This document shows, in pieces, positions 1,620-52,897 of a DNA stretch of 58,849 bases. Under the pieces are notes generated by a model that made no database searches, was not told the origin of the DNA, and saw nothing but the letters and a program-made list of their open reading frames with translations. The first letter of the stretch is position 1, and each line of letters opens with the position of its first letter. Both the position numbers and the translations under genes were made by a program. Location: assembly GCA_014762645.1 (NCBI GenBank), contig JABURP010000023.1, positions 1-58,849 on the forward strand, written 5' to 3'. The DNA is from Crocinitomicaceae bacterium (lineage in GTDB: Bacteria; Bacteroidota; Bacteroidia; Flavobacteriales_D; Crocinitomicaceae).

Positions 1620-4600
1620 ATAGGAAGGGGCAGAACAAAAATGATATTACCAGGGATAAGCATTTTGGACACCTAAAAACGTACAAAGTTTTGGCTATTA
1701 TTCTTGTTCCTCTATTTCTCGTATACTTACTACTGGAGAAAAAATTTGATATTGAAATAGATGTTTTCCAAAAAGCACTATTGATTTATGTTGCCGTTTT
1801 ACTTTTGATATTTTATATTTTTTCTCGGGTAGAAATATTCCGCAAAAATTTTTTGTTTGCCCATTATAGTTTCCTTTCCGGAGTGATGTTAATTAATCTT
1901 GTGTGGTACGCAAGTGATCCCGGAGTTATTCAGAGTACCAGCTTGGTTTTAAGTGCAAACCTTATTGGAATTGGAATTATGAACCCCAAAGTGACTTTGG
2001 GGTTCTTTGTGGCTGTCCTTCTCTCTTATGTTGGAATAGAGTTGGGAAACACACGATTTGGTATTGAGTTGGCCTTAATGCTTCTAGTTACTGCTTCTGT
2101 GGTGACTGGGGTAAATTTTTGGAGAGAACGGATTGTAAAAGAATTACAATCATCCCGAAAAACATTTAAGGGGATATTTGATTATGCGGATCAGCAAATC
2201 TATGTCTTATCCAAAGATTTTGTCATTTTGGATCTTTCCAAAGCAGCTGAAGAGTACTTGAAAGAACACGGCCTTACCAATGTTGAAAATAAGTTGTTTA
2301 ATGAAGTTTTTGTTCTTGAAACAGATGAGTGTAAAGAAAATTTTAATTCAGGAATTGAAAAATGTGAGAAGGAGGGGCGCGCCAGTTTTCTGACAAATTG
2401 TTCCGTTGTTGGTAATGGGGAGTTTATTCCGAAAGAGTTTCATTTACGAAAGGGTCGATATTTTAACTGGGAAGTGTATATCCTTAATGTGCGTATTGTT
2501 AAGGAACAAAAAGACTATGAGAGGGAGTTGTTAAAACACAAAGACAGTGTAACTCAAATACTGGAAAATATCAATCACTTTGTGTTTAATATCTCGTATG
2601 ATCTTAAGGAAAAGGATAAACATCAAGTAAATTTTGTCTCCTCAAAAGTGGAAGAGGTTTTTGGATATTCAGTAGACGAATACATCACTTTGGTGAAATC
2701 AGACCGACTTGATAAGGACAAGCATCCGGATGATCTGGTTGAATTAAAAGCCAAAAGAGAAGCATTATTTCAAAAAGGAGGGAAAGACTCCTGGCGCTTC
2801 AGAATGAAAGTTAATGGAGAATGGCGCTGGATAGAAGAGAAAGTATCCGTTGAAAAAATACCCGGCAGCACCCGAATTTCATTATTCGGTATGGTAAAAG
2901 ATGTTACGGATGAAATTTTAGCTGAAAAACTCTTAAAAGATTCAGAAAGACGCTACCGTCAAATATTTGAAACCAACCTGGCAGGTGTGTATAAAACAAA
3001 TTTAGACGGGGATTTATTGGATTGTAATCCTGCTTTTGCAAAAATCCTTGGCTATGATTCGGCGGAGGAATTAAAAAAGGTAAAAATCCACAACATCTAT
3101 TTTAATGAAAAAGATCGGGAAGCATATATCAAAGAACTAAAAGAGAAGAAACAACTCAACAACTATCAGTTACAGCTAAAACGAAAAGACGGAAGAACAC
3201 TTCTAGTCACAAACAATGTCTCCATTCAAAAAGATGAAACCGGTGAAGAAAACACCATTATAGGAACACTGGTTGATCTCACAGAACTACATGAAACCAG
3301 TTTAGCATTAAAACACAGTGAAGAAAAATACAGACTGCTTTTTGAAGAATCAAACAACGCGATTTTATTGGTTATGTTTTCTGAGGATGGAAGGTTCGTT
3401 GTTGATACAAACCAAATGGCCACAGAACTCTTTGGGCTTGATGAGAACTATCTGGTAGGAAAAGAGCTCTCTGATTTGCTTTCTGACCCTGAAGATCTCA
3501 TGGATGATTTCCTAGAAATTGAAAAGGCCCTGGCAAAAAACAAGAGGGTAGAAAAGGAATGGGTATTTAAAAATAAGGAGAACAATAAATTCTATGCTGA
3601 GGTTTCGTTTGCGTCTATCATGATGGATGAAGACAATGTGGTACAACTCGTTATAAAAGACATTTCTGATAGAAAACAATACGAAAAAGAAATTCTGGAA
3701 AGTAGGCTGAGCTTTAAAAATATTGTGGATAAATCACCGGCTAGTATTTTAATATTCTCAGAAAGTGGAGAGTTGGAGTATGTGAATCCGAATGGAGAGA
3801 ACCTGTTTCTAAATGTGCTGAATTCAAAAGAAAGAAACCTCTATAAAGTATTTCCTGATAACAAACATCATTTAATAGATGACCTCATAAAAGAAGCAGA
3901 AAATGATATTAATTCATATACCGAAATAGAACTGGGAACAGGAGATAACATCAAGCGGTACAGCATTAACGTGGTAAACACGGTTTATAATTTTGAGAAA
4001 GCAAACCTGTTTATGTTGCAGGATATTACCCTGCAAACCGAATATAACATTCAAAAGCTGCGAGCTGAAATGGCAGAAGAAGCCAATATCTCGCTTCAGG
4101 AGGAGATACGAAGACACAAACGAACCCAGTTGTCGTTATTGGAGTCAACGTCTCGCTTAAAGGCTCTATTTGAAAGCTCAGGCCATTTATACATCATTTC
4201 AATTGATCGGGATTTTAATCTGGTGGCATACAATTACAACTTTGTTGACATGGTAAAGGAGTTTTTAGGCATTGATGTTGAAATGGGGATGAATTTTATG
4301 GACATTTTCCCTATTGAGGATTATGCTTATGGCATAATTATAGAACGTTTCAACCAGGTGCTAGCGGGAGAACCTTCGAATCTTATCTCGCGTTTTCAAT
4401 CGAAAAAAGGAGAAGTATGGATGGAGTCTTTTATGAGCCCTATCCAAATTGAGGGCCAGGAGGTAACTGAGATATCTTTTATTTCACACAACATTACGGA
4501 ACAGGTTGAAAACAGAAGAAAAATACTGGAGAGTGAAGAGAACAACAGAGCACTCTTACTGGCCATTCCGGATATTTTATTCAAAGCAAATAATGAAGGA

Positions 4601-49788: not shown

Positions 49789-49929
49789 TTTGGATGCTGT
49801 TTATTGGAAGACTAATTTACAGTAAATAGGTTGCACCAAGGTGAATTTTTCCAAGGTTTTTTCCACGAATTTTCAGATCGTAAATTGATTACGTTCTGCT
49901 GCCCTAACATTGTATCAAATCTTAAGACA

Positions 49930-50256
49930 ATGGATACAATATTTTCAGTTTACAAACAGCTCAAGGTAAAAGAGGTTACTTATGAAAAGGGAGATTACTA
50001 TATCATGGCCACCTGTGAAATAATTCAGGGAGACAAGATAACAGAAACGAAGATACAGATGACACATACTGACTTAAACCGCATTATCGCCAGAATAGCG
50101 GCTATGGGGTACGAATTTAAGATTGAACATGTCAACTGTTTAGACTTTGGCAATGGCACAGAGATTATTGATTACAAGTTTGAAAATGTTTTTGGGGAGC
50201 TGATCACTTTAGAGGAGTTTAATTTTAATCAACGAATCAGACAAATACGCGCATAA
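49930..50256 (+). CDS. Small protein of unknown function, first of an overlapping pair
   Basis: A 108-residue protein from the ATG at 49930; the longer frame from 49831 adds 33 residues over the promoter region of the divergent gene. It contains QLKVKEVTYEKGDYYIMATCEI, KIQMTHTDLNRIIARIAAMGYEF and FENVFGELITLEEFNFNQRIRQ, an alpha/beta pattern with no signal peptide or membrane segment. No family is recognised. Its stop overlaps the start of the next gene by 1 nt (TAATG), so the two proteins are probably made together. Confidence 0.75.
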   Translation: MDTIFSVYKQLKVKEVTYEKGDYYIMATCEIIQGDKITETKIQMTHTDLNRIIARIAAMGYEFKIEHVNCLDFGNGTEIIDYKFENVFGELITLEEFNFNQRIRQIRA

Positions 50257-50609
50257 TGAATAGACTAATTAAGAATTTAGGTATAGGCCAGGAGATGTCT
50301 ATCAAAGCTACAATTGCTGTAGAAGAGCTCATGAATCACGATATGATTTATATCTACCATCATTTAAAAAACGGCTCTGTTGTTCAACTGGAGCAAAGCG
50401 GAATTAACTTGAAAGGTGAGCCAAGATACGCGGTTAAATTTAGAGGGTTTTTGATTGGATATGCAACAATTGCAGGTATAATGCGAACGTTTTTTGAAGA
50501 TCAAAAAGAAGCAGAAGCCCTTGTTGTTTCTGTATCAAAGCAAAAATTTATGCCGATTAACGGCCTGGATATTCAGATTGGTGTACAGGCCATGAAAAAA
50601 GTGGGTTAA
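50256..50609 (+). CDS. Small protein of unknown function, second of an overlapping pair
   Basis: A 117-residue soluble protein. Features visible are EELMNHDMIYIYHHLKNGSVVQLEQSG, then NLKGEPRYAVKFRGFLIGYATIAGIM, and EALVVSVSKQKFMPINGLDI. The middle strand-turn-strand resembles small beta-barrel modules, but no family can be named. It is translationally coupled to the 108-residue protein before it. The 169 nt after it contain only a weak promoter-like TATCTTTA (50686-50693) for the next gene. Confidence 0.75.
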   Translation: MNRLIKNLGIGQEMSIKATIAVEELMNHDMIYIYHHLKNGSVVQLEQSGINLKGEPRYAVKFRGFLIGYATIAGIMRTFFEDQKEAEALVVSVSKQKFMPINGLDIQIGVQAMKKVG

Positions 50610-50778
50610 CTCATATAGTCCTCTAAAAGACTCCGGAAACTTCGCAACCATTAGGGTTTCACTTTCGTATATGGTAAAAATTGCCTATCTTTACAGGTAC
50701 ATGCGTCAAATTTACAACAGGATGTAACAAATTGAGGCGTGTATTTGTTTTACTTGGGCATATTAAATACATTTTCAG

Positions 50779-51399
50779 ATGAAAAAGACACTTACGATTG
50801 GGGTAATTGCGGGGTTAGTATTCTTAGTTTCGTGTACAGATCACGAAGTTATTCCACCTCCAGTTCCTTTAGTTGATCTGGATTGTCTATGCGAAGGGAC
50901 CGTTACTACTCAAAACGGTGACAGTACCATTTCCTATAGTGATACCTGTACGTATAGTTCAACAAAAACCATTAATACCGGGTCACTTTCTAATGCAGAA
51001 TACAATACGCAGGTATGGAACTCAGGAATGAACCAAAAAGTTGAACTTGAAATGCGTTCGCTGTATTGGAGTGATGATGGTTCAAATAATCCAACATCTA
51101 CCGATTGGCAAGCCTATTTTAATGGAAACATGAATCCAAATTACGCACCTACAGCAGGTGATGATGGAGTTGTAGTGAGATGGACAGATCCTAACGGAAG
51201 AGTTTGGACTTCTGATACCGGACAGGTTTGTTTGAGCAGTTTTACCTATAACCTGTTTACGTATGATTCAGATACAACAGGAGAATATATGGAGTTTGAT
51301 GCTGTATTCCATGCAAGACTTTTAAACTCAGACATTACTCCGGATAGTTCTATTTGCATTAAAAACTTCCACATGAAGTCGGCATTTAGACGTGAATAA
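50779..51399 (+). CDS. Lipoprotein of unknown function
   Basis: A 206-residue protein with a lipoprotein signal peptide (lipobox LVSC, Cys19). The mature region begins DHEVIPPPVPLVDLDCLCEG and is rich in Ser, Thr, Asn and Asp, with a CxC pair near residue 37 and other single cysteines. It lacks a T9SS sorting domain. It stands alone and ends in an intrinsic terminator. No family recognised. Confidence 0.82.
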   Translation: MKKTLTIGVIAGLVFLVSCTDHEVIPPPVPLVDLDCLCEGTVTTQNGDSTISYSDTCTYSSTKTINTGSLSNAEYNTQVWNSGMNQKVELEMRSLYWSDDGSNNPTSTDWQAYFNGNMNPNYAPTAGDDGVVVRWTDPNGRVWTSDTGQVCLSSFTYNLFTYDSDTTGEYMEFDAVFHARLLNSDITPDSSICIKNFHMKSAFRRE

Positions 51400-51427
51400 G
51401 AAATTTTCAGTACTTTAGTTACTAGGA

Positions 51428-51457
51428 GGGAGGTTCTTTCGAATCTCCCTTTTTTTT
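51428..51457 (+). terminator. Intrinsic terminator after the lipoprotein gene
   Basis: A 9-bp stem (GGGAGGTTC/GAATCTCCC, one G-U pair) with a TTTC loop lies at 51428-51449, directly followed by eight T (51450-51457). Confidence 0.88.
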
Positions 51458-51489
51458 ATTAATTTGGACTATTAGCACGGTCACTGATC

Positions 51490-52182
51490 ATGGATGAAGT
51501 ACTAAGAATCGCTATAATTGGCGATTATAATTTCGCGTATAATTCGCATAATGCGACCAACCAGGCTCTTCAACACGTAGAAGAGGTGCTTGACCAACCC
51601 CTTAACTTTTATTGGTTAAACGAAAAAGAGTGCTGCGAGCAAAACGAAGACTTTTATGATAATTATGACGGCATTATTATCGCTCCAGGACCCTATCGCC
51701 AACCTTTTTACTTCAATTCTATCATTACAAGGCTGCTTGAAAAAAATGTGCCGGTGCTGGGAACAGGAGATTGTTTCAAACTTCTCGTTGAAACATACTT
51801 TTCTCAAAAAGGATACGATTTGGGAAGAGAAAAAATCATCTCAGAAAATTTAATAGAGGGAAATCAATTTACAGGAGTTAATTTGGAAAAGCTAACGGAT
51901 GAGTTTGAGAAAATTTATCTCAATAAAAGCACAGTAGAATATAGCTCCTCAAGATATTCCATTTTACCACAATACTCCGATTTTTTAACGGAGGATTTTG
52001 AGATTTGCGCACGGAATCAATACTTTGATCCGGAGATTCTAAAATCAAAGAATCACGACTTCTTTCTATTTACAATGTTCTGTCCGCAGGTACTTTCAAC
52101 TTCAGATATGCCACACCCTATCTTCACCTACTTCGTGAAGTCAGTTCGAAGAATATTTGACATCAAGGCAAGTACTTCTTAG
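51490..52182 (+). CDS. CTP-synthase-like class I glutamine amidotransferase domain protein with degenerate active site
   Basis: A 230-residue stand-alone protein resembling the C-terminal GATase domain of CTP synthase: LRIAIIGDYNFAYNSHNATNQALQHV at the start, YDGIIIAPGPYRQ for the oxyanion region, and PHPIFTYFVKSV at the end. Aligned by eye to PyrG, the nucleophile Cys position (LGICLG) is Gly93 in LGTGDCFK, with a cysteine two residues later (Cys95). The catalytic His-x-Glu is Cys198-P-Gln200 (FCPQ). All three catalytic residues are therefore replaced. I recall a RefSeq family named 'CTP synthase C-terminal region-related (seleno)protein', which fits. A redox or regulatory role is possible. 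It overlaps the convergent biotin-carrier gene by 4 nt. Confidence 0.8.
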   Translation: MDEVLRIAIIGDYNFAYNSHNATNQALQHVEEVLDQPLNFYWLNEKECCEQNEDFYDNYDGIIIAPGPYRQPFYFNSIITRLLEKNVPVLGTGDCFKLLVETYFSQKGYDLGREKIISENLIEGNQFTGVNLEKLTDEFEKIYLNKSTVEYSSSRYSILPQYSDFLTEDFEICARNQYFDPEILKSKNHDFFLFTMFCPQVLSTSDMPHPIFTYFVKSVRRIFDIKASTS

Positions 52183-52646
52183 ATGGCGTCCAATTCAACT
52201 AAAACCTGGTTCTTTTCAACACTGTCAGATGAAGTGACATGAACTTTCTTAATACTGCAATCATTCTCAGCCTTTAAGACATTTTCCATCTTCATAGCTT
52301 CCAGAATTAATATTGGGCCTCCTTTTGGAACCTTATCACCTTCTTTAACAACAACGTCAATAACTTTTCCGGGCATTGGAGCTTTGATATCAGTATTAAG
52401 TATTTCGGAAGATCGCTTAATACCCATTTTGTCCAACACAATATCCAGCTCATTTTTGAAAGCAAGCTCATACGTGCGGTGGTTGTACCGAATAGACATC
52501 ATTTTGGTCTCCAGATCAACAGAGAGCACCTCTAAGTAAACTTCTGTTTTTCCATCTACTATCCGATACACACCTTTTTCCAGGTGTTGAATATTAAGTT
52601 CAGACTTCTTTTTGTCAAGTTCAATTGTTTTGATGAGGCTTATCAT
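52179..52646 (-). CDS. Biotin carboxyl carrier-type protein
   Basis: A 155-residue protein. The C-terminal 70 residues form a biotinyl/lipoyl domain with the biotinylation motif EAMK119M and preceding APMPGKVIDVVVKEGDKVPKG. The first 80 residues (YRIVDGKTEVYLEVLSVD, YNHRTYELAFKNELD) resemble the linker domain of propionyl/methylcrotonyl-CoA carboxylase alpha chains or their stand-alone carriers in Bacteroidota. No biotin carboxylase or carboxyltransferase gene is adjacent in this window, so its partner is elsewhere. Confidence 0.9.
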   Translation of the reverse strand: MISLIKTIELDKKKSELNIQHLEKGVYRIVDGKTEVYLEVLSVDLETKMMSIRYNHRTYELAFKNELDIVLDKMGIKRSSEILNTDIKAPMPGKVIDVVVKEGDKVPKGGPILILEAMKMENVLKAENDCSIKKVHVTSSDSVEKNQVLVELDAI

Positions 52647-52897
52647 GAACGATCATTTAATGCACAGCTAAATTAGGTATTATCCTCCAGTTTGCTTAAC
52701 TTACGGTAACGGAAATTGATGGCCCCAATTATTATTTTCCTTATTAACCTTACAACTCAGTTTGTAGATTCCCCCATTTATTTGTTATTGGCTATTAACC
52801 CGGTGAGTTAAAAAATTAGTTTTTTGAAGACCACAAGGTGATTTTTTTTGCACTTTTGCATTTCTATTTTTAAGGGAGCCATCTTCCTGATAATAAG
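52647..52897. other. 251-nt divergent intergenic region
   Basis: This AT-rich gap separates the biotin-carrier gene and the V4R-kinase gene. A T-rich segment at about 52842-52873 (with TTTTGCATTTCTATTTTTAA) is the likely promoter zone of the kinase, without a perfect TAnnTTTG. A 30-codon hydrophobic frame at 52719-52811 has no ribosome-binding signal and is not called. Confidence 0.4.

Follow-up and report, generated by a model that had tools for sequence, protein, structure and literature searches.

Two neighbouring genes on the plus strand of the window (the whole analysed stretch of DNA, 58,849 nucleotides) are considered here. The upstream gene (50779..51399), characterized by a lipobox and by comparison of loci, encodes an exported lipoprotein of 206 amino acids from an unknown family. 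The gene directly downstream (51490..52182) has an ATG start and no internal stop. It encodes a GATase-fold protein of 230 amino acids, apparently non-catalytic, that is related to NF004836 (PRK06186) and to the glutaminase domain of CTP synthase (PyrG). A hairpin scan revealed an intrinsic-terminator-like structure between the two genes (51424..51457, plus strand). Further upstream, the region 49831-50609 encodes two small proteins without Pfam matches; of the 78 loci compared, 38 and 16, respectively, have relatives of them close to the gene pair.

The best family match of the GATase-like protein is NF004836, the model named 'CTP synthase C-terminal region-related (seleno)protein' (90.4 bits, E 9.1e-26, curated cut-off 260). 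This link had been made correctly in the sequence-only reading. PyrG models score about 48 bits, and the Pfam GATase domain PF00117 matches residues 25-216 with 22.6 bits (E 9.2e-5), narrowly missing the gathering score of 22.8. In an hmmsearch, the profile of the family finds PyrG of E. coli (1s1m) with E 7.2e-16. The AF2 model, based on 77 homologues, has mean pLDDT 91.2. Its nearest solved structures in Foldseek are CTP synthases, among them the glutaminase domain of human CTPS2 (E 4.9e-16), and its alignment to E. coli CTPS has Z 25.9 over 222 residues with rmsd 2.5. Thus the predicted model has the class I GATase fold, and the homology to the CTP-synthase GATase domain, initially suggested by eye, is confirmed by the NF004836 match, the profile search, Foldseek and the Z score of the predicted fold. 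No signal peptide was seen by eye. The N-terminal synthase domain is absent, as the ORF has only 230 codons for amino acids; a full-length PyrG is encoded elsewhere in the genome, on another contig (L008).

The former active site

In total, 78 distinct homologous proteins were considered. The family comprises 73 of them, 65 from genomes placed in Crocinitomicaceae and 8 assigned by similarity, including the proteins of Crocinitomix catalasitica (L064) and C. algicola (L073). The other five (L109-L113) are distant homologues from the same order. The PyrG comparison set consists of those 23 of 30 PyrG loci that match the window protein at E <= 1e-5; the other seven were left out.

All three catalytic residues had been thought to be replaced, and this is indeed the case: Gly93, Cys198 and Gln200 stand opposite the PyrG Cys, His and Glu, each of which is present in 23/23 PyrG. 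The former nucleophile elbow is formed by residues 91-97, GTGDCFK (51760..51780, plus strand). Apart from the Cys to Gly93 replacement, it has the variable Cys95 at the position of the elbow Gly (23/23 PyrG) and Lys97 instead of the elbow Gln. The triplet Cys198-Pro199-Gln200 (52081..52089, plus strand) occupies the place of the catalytic His-Pro-Glu; in the alignment to 1s1m, Cys198 and Gln200 correspond to His515 and Glu517. The window protein thus has neither the Cys nucleophile nor the His-Glu dyad of active GATases. Since the nucleophile, His and Glu are all lost, no glutamine hydrolysis is expected, and we infer that the protein is inactive as a glutaminase.

Gly93 and Gln200 are found in 73/73 family members, and the same is true for each of His20, Thr23, Glu150, Arg155, Pro199, Ser203 and His209. 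Arg155 (51952..51954, plus strand) is opposite Arg470 of E. coli PyrG, presumably a glutamine-binding residue. Column 94 contains Glu (53), Asp (18), Leu (1) and Gly (1), and column 97 contains Lys (63), Arg (8), Ser (1) and Pro (1). The two cysteine columns are more diverse: column 95 is Gly in 31, Cys in 19, Ala in 13 and Ser in 10 members, and column 198 is Cys in 56, Tyr in 7, Leu in 5, Thr in 2, Ile in 2, Val in one and His in none. Column 154 has Cys in 0/73 members. In the 72-row family alignment, 42 positions reach 95% identity or more. The mean column entropy of the 57 residues assigned to the former active site is 0.79 bits versus 1.63 elsewhere up to residue 219 (72 rows), a contrast biased toward the reading preferred here, as the active-site segments were chosen after the conserved columns had been seen. 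The new invariant residues argue for rebuilding as opposed to random loss, and the former active site, as far as can be judged from the alignments, looks rebuilt rather than decayed.

One possibility is that the rebuilt site has acquired new chemistry, with His20, Glu/Asp94, Lys97, Gln200 and Ser203 catalysing another reaction. Indeed, His20, Gln200 and Ser203 are as invariant as catalytic residues usually are, and His20 is common to 8/8 NF004836 proteins and absent from PyrG, where this position is Tyr in 23/23. However, columns 94 and 97 vary, and catalysis without a nucleophile at this position is not known to us from any relative of the class I GATases. We consider this explanation rather unlikely.

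Distribution, selection and the upstream lipoprotein gene

The order search covered 199 genomes, 66 from Crocinitomicaceae (as counted by hand) and 133 others. The GATase-like protein is present in 66/66 Crocinitomicaceae genomes, and its matches have no internal stops. The genomes without a match (20 of the 77 are listed) begin with members of the order outside the family, and hence no Crocinitomicaceae genome is taken to be without the gene. In the class search (295 genomes, E <= 1e-12), the non-family matches listed are frames of at least 485 amino acids, as expected for PyrG, with the exception of four shorter ones of 171, 182, 196 and 411 amino acids (G721, G583, G522 and G550, respectively). 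These perhaps represent PyrG cut at contig ends.

The five distant homologues also have no Cys in column 93 (Asp in three, Gly in one, Ser in one), and one of them, L113, retains His in column 198. The L113 protein (L113:4959-5696) scores 184.6 bits against NF004836 and contains the motifs GTSSGCQ and HPQ, that is, Cys is lost, His is kept and Glu is replaced by Gln. Judging from these motifs, it appears to represent a midway step in the loss of the triad. In the tree (52 of 109 rows), 30 family members are on one starred branch, and NF004836, PyrG and L113 are on the opposite side. The placement of four rows with long branches, namely L112, L113 and two from NF004836, is uncertain.

Of 12 hand-picked pairs, eight gave dN/dS values for the GATase-like gene, all between 0.002 and 0.046. 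The other four pairs are saturated, and in four of the remaining eight Ks exceeds 1.6, so these figures are rough. Nevertheless, by these comparisons the gene is under strong purifying selection in Crocinitomicaceae. The loss of all three catalytic residues could in principle be the mark of a decaying glutaminase relic. This reading was rejected, as it is contradicted by the dN/dS figures and the open frames in 66/66 genomes; the 42 nearly identical positions also argue against it, and its probability is negligible.

A relative of the lipoprotein gene is located directly upstream on the same strand in 73/73 family loci and in 0/5 distant loci. In L109, one of the distant loci, the upstream product begins like a lipoprotein but is outside the cluster of the window lipoprotein. 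All other neighbour clusters are less frequent, the next commonest occurring in 38/78 loci and the commonest downstream one in 22/78, where 23 loci were represented with 1.5 kb flanks only. The lipoprotein profile scores above 197 bits in 66/66 Crocinitomicaceae genomes and in 0/133 other genomes. Weak matches were found in 3/133 other genomes (E 1.7e-5 to 8.8e-4), none of which hosts the five distant homologues. At G474:C1:98889-99113, G460:C12:59870-60022 and G411:C1:263628-263786, other, longer frames of 314-323 amino acids are similar to the N-terminal part of the profile only.

The lipobox residue Cys19 is invariant in the 72 aligned lipoproteins, and the lipoprotein model is beta-rich with pLDDT 91.3. 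Pfam matches of the lipoproteins are weak (at most 4/72 members per family, best E 0.0073); names such as DUF5016 and POLO_box were taken as chance matches and rejected. The window member has no match in NCBIfam, and none in Foldseek at E <= 0.001. The lipoprotein Ka exceeds that of the GATase-like gene in 10/12 pairs, and the lipoprotein dN/dS is 0.027-0.243 in 11/12.

The spacing between the two genes ranges from 8 to 135 bases, and is 323 bases in C. catalasitica. A terminator-like hairpin lies between them in 42/73 family loci by our own criterion, applied without a shuffled control; the terminator scan of the window region 50500-52700 yielded one hairpin versus 1.4 in shuffles. The intergenic hairpins differ in sequence between clades. 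Their presence in 42/73 loci argues against simple co-transcription there, and in the hairpin-bearing species the GATase-like gene may have its own promoter or be reached by weak read-through. The promoter scan produced 7 sites with 6.2 expected.

The constant neighbour also bears on a different explanation, in which the GATase-like protein is a subunit that docks on a partner such as PyrG or a different synthase, and its conserved loops form an interface and not a ligand pocket. GATase domains are built for docking on a synthase partner, and the full-length PyrG encoded separately in the same genome leaves the GATase-like protein free to act in trans. Moreover, conservation extends over long stretches, including GDYNF..SHxATN and PHP. 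However, the constant neighbour encodes an exported lipoprotein and is not a synthase-type gene. Further, the polar or charged Arg155, Glu150 and His20, each in 73/73 members, belong to segments that we take to line the pocket of the PyrG fold. Docking is thus a possible role, although not a likely one.

Cysteines and selenocysteine

The sequence-only reading had suggested that Cys95 and Cys198 form a redox or metal pair in the former active site. Of these two residues, on whose conservation the suggestion depended, Cys198 is largely conserved (56/73) and Cys95 is not, being Cys in 19/73 members only; thus the proposed pair does not hold for the family. Column 95 is Gly, Ala or Ser in 54/73 members, and it is Ser in L033, from the same genus as the window. 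A redox or metal role could still be sought in the pair where it exists or in Cys198 alone. Indeed, both cysteines co-occur in 19/73 members, and Cys95 is never found without Cys198. However, Cys198 is replaced by Tyr, Leu, Thr, Ile or Val in 17/73 members, and even the best Cys column of the 72-row alignment reaches only 56/72. Such a redox or metal role therefore seems highly improbable; Cys198 may still have some role of its own.

The sequence-only reading had proposed looking for alternation of Cys and Sec at positions 95 and 198; no such alternation was seen. Selenoproteins of the related NF004836 would be consistent with redox function; in a review, NF004836 is listed as a selenoprotein family with the motif GxUxG (PMC13188914). 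As GxUxG is the nucleophile elbow, the Sec column of NF004836 aligns with Gly93 and not with Cys95 or Cys198, which argues against transferring the redox role to the window family. A COG0504 selenoprotein with Cys homologues is reported for Desulfosediminicola ganghwensis in another paper (PMC12013277).

The window ORF has no in-frame TGA. In the window genome (a draft, 98.99% complete), the best SelB candidate scores 184 bits against the cut-off of 242.25, which is passed by 2/14 control genomes, and the best tRNA-Sec candidate scores 42.7 against the threshold of 47, passed by 5/14 controls. The three best tRNA-Sec candidates were called tRNA-Ser, tRNA-Leu and tRNA-Ser. Selenocysteine in the window family was rejected in view of the stop-free ORFs and, in the window genome, the lack of SelB and tRNA-Sec above the thresholds.

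Proposed role and comparison with known systems

The explanation that we prefer, at a probability of about 0.45, is that the product of the GATase-like gene has no catalytic role and acts together with the lipoprotein, either by binding a ligand or as an adaptor. It would be a pseudo-glutaminase, that is, a standalone CTP-synthase glutaminase fold that does not hydrolyse glutamine. The old pocket would have been rebuilt with Asp12, His20, Thr23, Thr92-Gly93-Glu/Asp94, Lys/Arg97 and Gln200, all invariant or nearly so, and would retain Glu150, Arg155, Pro199 and Ser203 of PyrG. The protein, presumably cytosolic, might bind in this pocket a small carboxylate or an amino-acid-like ligand and take part, as a sensor or adaptor, in the process that the upstream-encoded lipoprotein serves. 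Direct contact of the two products is unlikely, since the lipoprotein is exported and the GATase-like protein probably is not.

The features on which this proposal is built, namely the predicted fold, the triad loss, the strong constraint, the family-wide presence and the gene pairing, all come from comparison of proteins and loci. Against it, the conservation of the pocket could reflect catalysis of a different reaction; besides, the five distant homologues have no lipoprotein gene and only two of the five have Arg155. A more specific version is a two-gene module of Crocinitomicaceae, where the non-catalytic pocket senses a nitrogen or carboxylate metabolite and, acting with the surface lipoprotein, links cytosolic nitrogen status to the envelope. 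This version is speculative, and we regard it as doubtful.

The full-text literature searched, which takes in few subscription journals and no preprints, yielded nothing on the window family itself and no account of any pseudoenzyme built on the CTP-synthase glutaminase fold. The GATase-fold pseudoenzyme proposed here by comparison, which is fixed in the sampled Crocinitomicaceae and tied to a single lipoprotein gene, provides a defined pair to test.

For the lipoprotein, the best structural likeness in VIA-align is mycobacterial LpqH (4zjm), also a lipoprotein rich in beta structure (Z 8.1, 107 residues, rmsd 3.5). The identity is 8%, and the Z score is borderline, as values below 8 can reflect a common arrangement only.

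The GATase-like protein resembles the glutaminase domain of PyrG in its predicted fold and in Glu150, Arg155, Pro199 and Ser203. Further, the family-wide His209 is present in 21/23 PyrG, and Gly67 is found in 71/73 family members. Unlike the window protein, PyrG has the Cys-His-Glu triad and the synthase domain. The catalytic residues of the Pfam GATase family PF00117 are likewise missing in the window protein.

The closest named relative is NF004836, also standalone and about 230 amino acids long. It is matched at some score by 77/77 members scanned, and its cut-off of 260 bits is missed by the family (apart from the window protein, L072 scores 89.4 and L103 84.7). No protein exceeds this cut-off in 296 Bacteroidota genomes, nor in the 14 control genomes, so there is no positive control in that sample; the same model does recognize 7/8 proteins from plasmid records, the exception, L163, scoring 259.1 versus 260. 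These eight proteins (L129:4004-4696, L130:2270-2959, L131:728-1432, and L162-L166 near 3001-3690) come from 8 of the 11 plasmid records, L129 included, whose identity to L129 is 39% or higher among the 60 of 89 records listed. In the Klebsiella (L130:1272-2962) and Enterobacter (L131:282-1435) plasmid records, the NF004836 gene carries the annotation CTP synthase and adjoins a DUF488 gene, and in the Klebsiella record only, a DUF523 gene is also adjacent. DUF523 too appears among the selenoprotein families listed in the review (PMC13188914).

The window family shares with NF004836 His20 and Thr92 (each in 8/8), as well as Phe96 and Asp12 (6/8), whereas the corresponding PyrG residues are Tyr, Ile, mostly Met, and Lys, respectively. 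On the other hand, all eight NF004836 proteins keep Cys93 and have Cys154, which is located opposite E. coli His469, the neighbour of Arg470, whereas the window family has Gly93 and no Cys154. The eight proteins have no His198 (Gln in seven, Val in one), Glu200 is present in seven, and none contains Sec. Thus they are probably not glutaminases by their residues, and NF004836 may be a redox protein, with the Cys/Sec93-Cys154 pair as a redox candidate; this role suits NF004836 better than the window family. The window family itself is, by the model cut-off and the Cys/Sec position, outside NF004836. Since NF004836 keeps the nucleophile Cys/Sec, and its eight proteins lack His and share a second Cys, it is probably a mistake to call either NF004836 or the window family 'CTP synthase' or glutaminase. 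The selenocysteine question is thereby relocated from the window family, in which no Sec member was seen, to NF004836, a named family that does have them.
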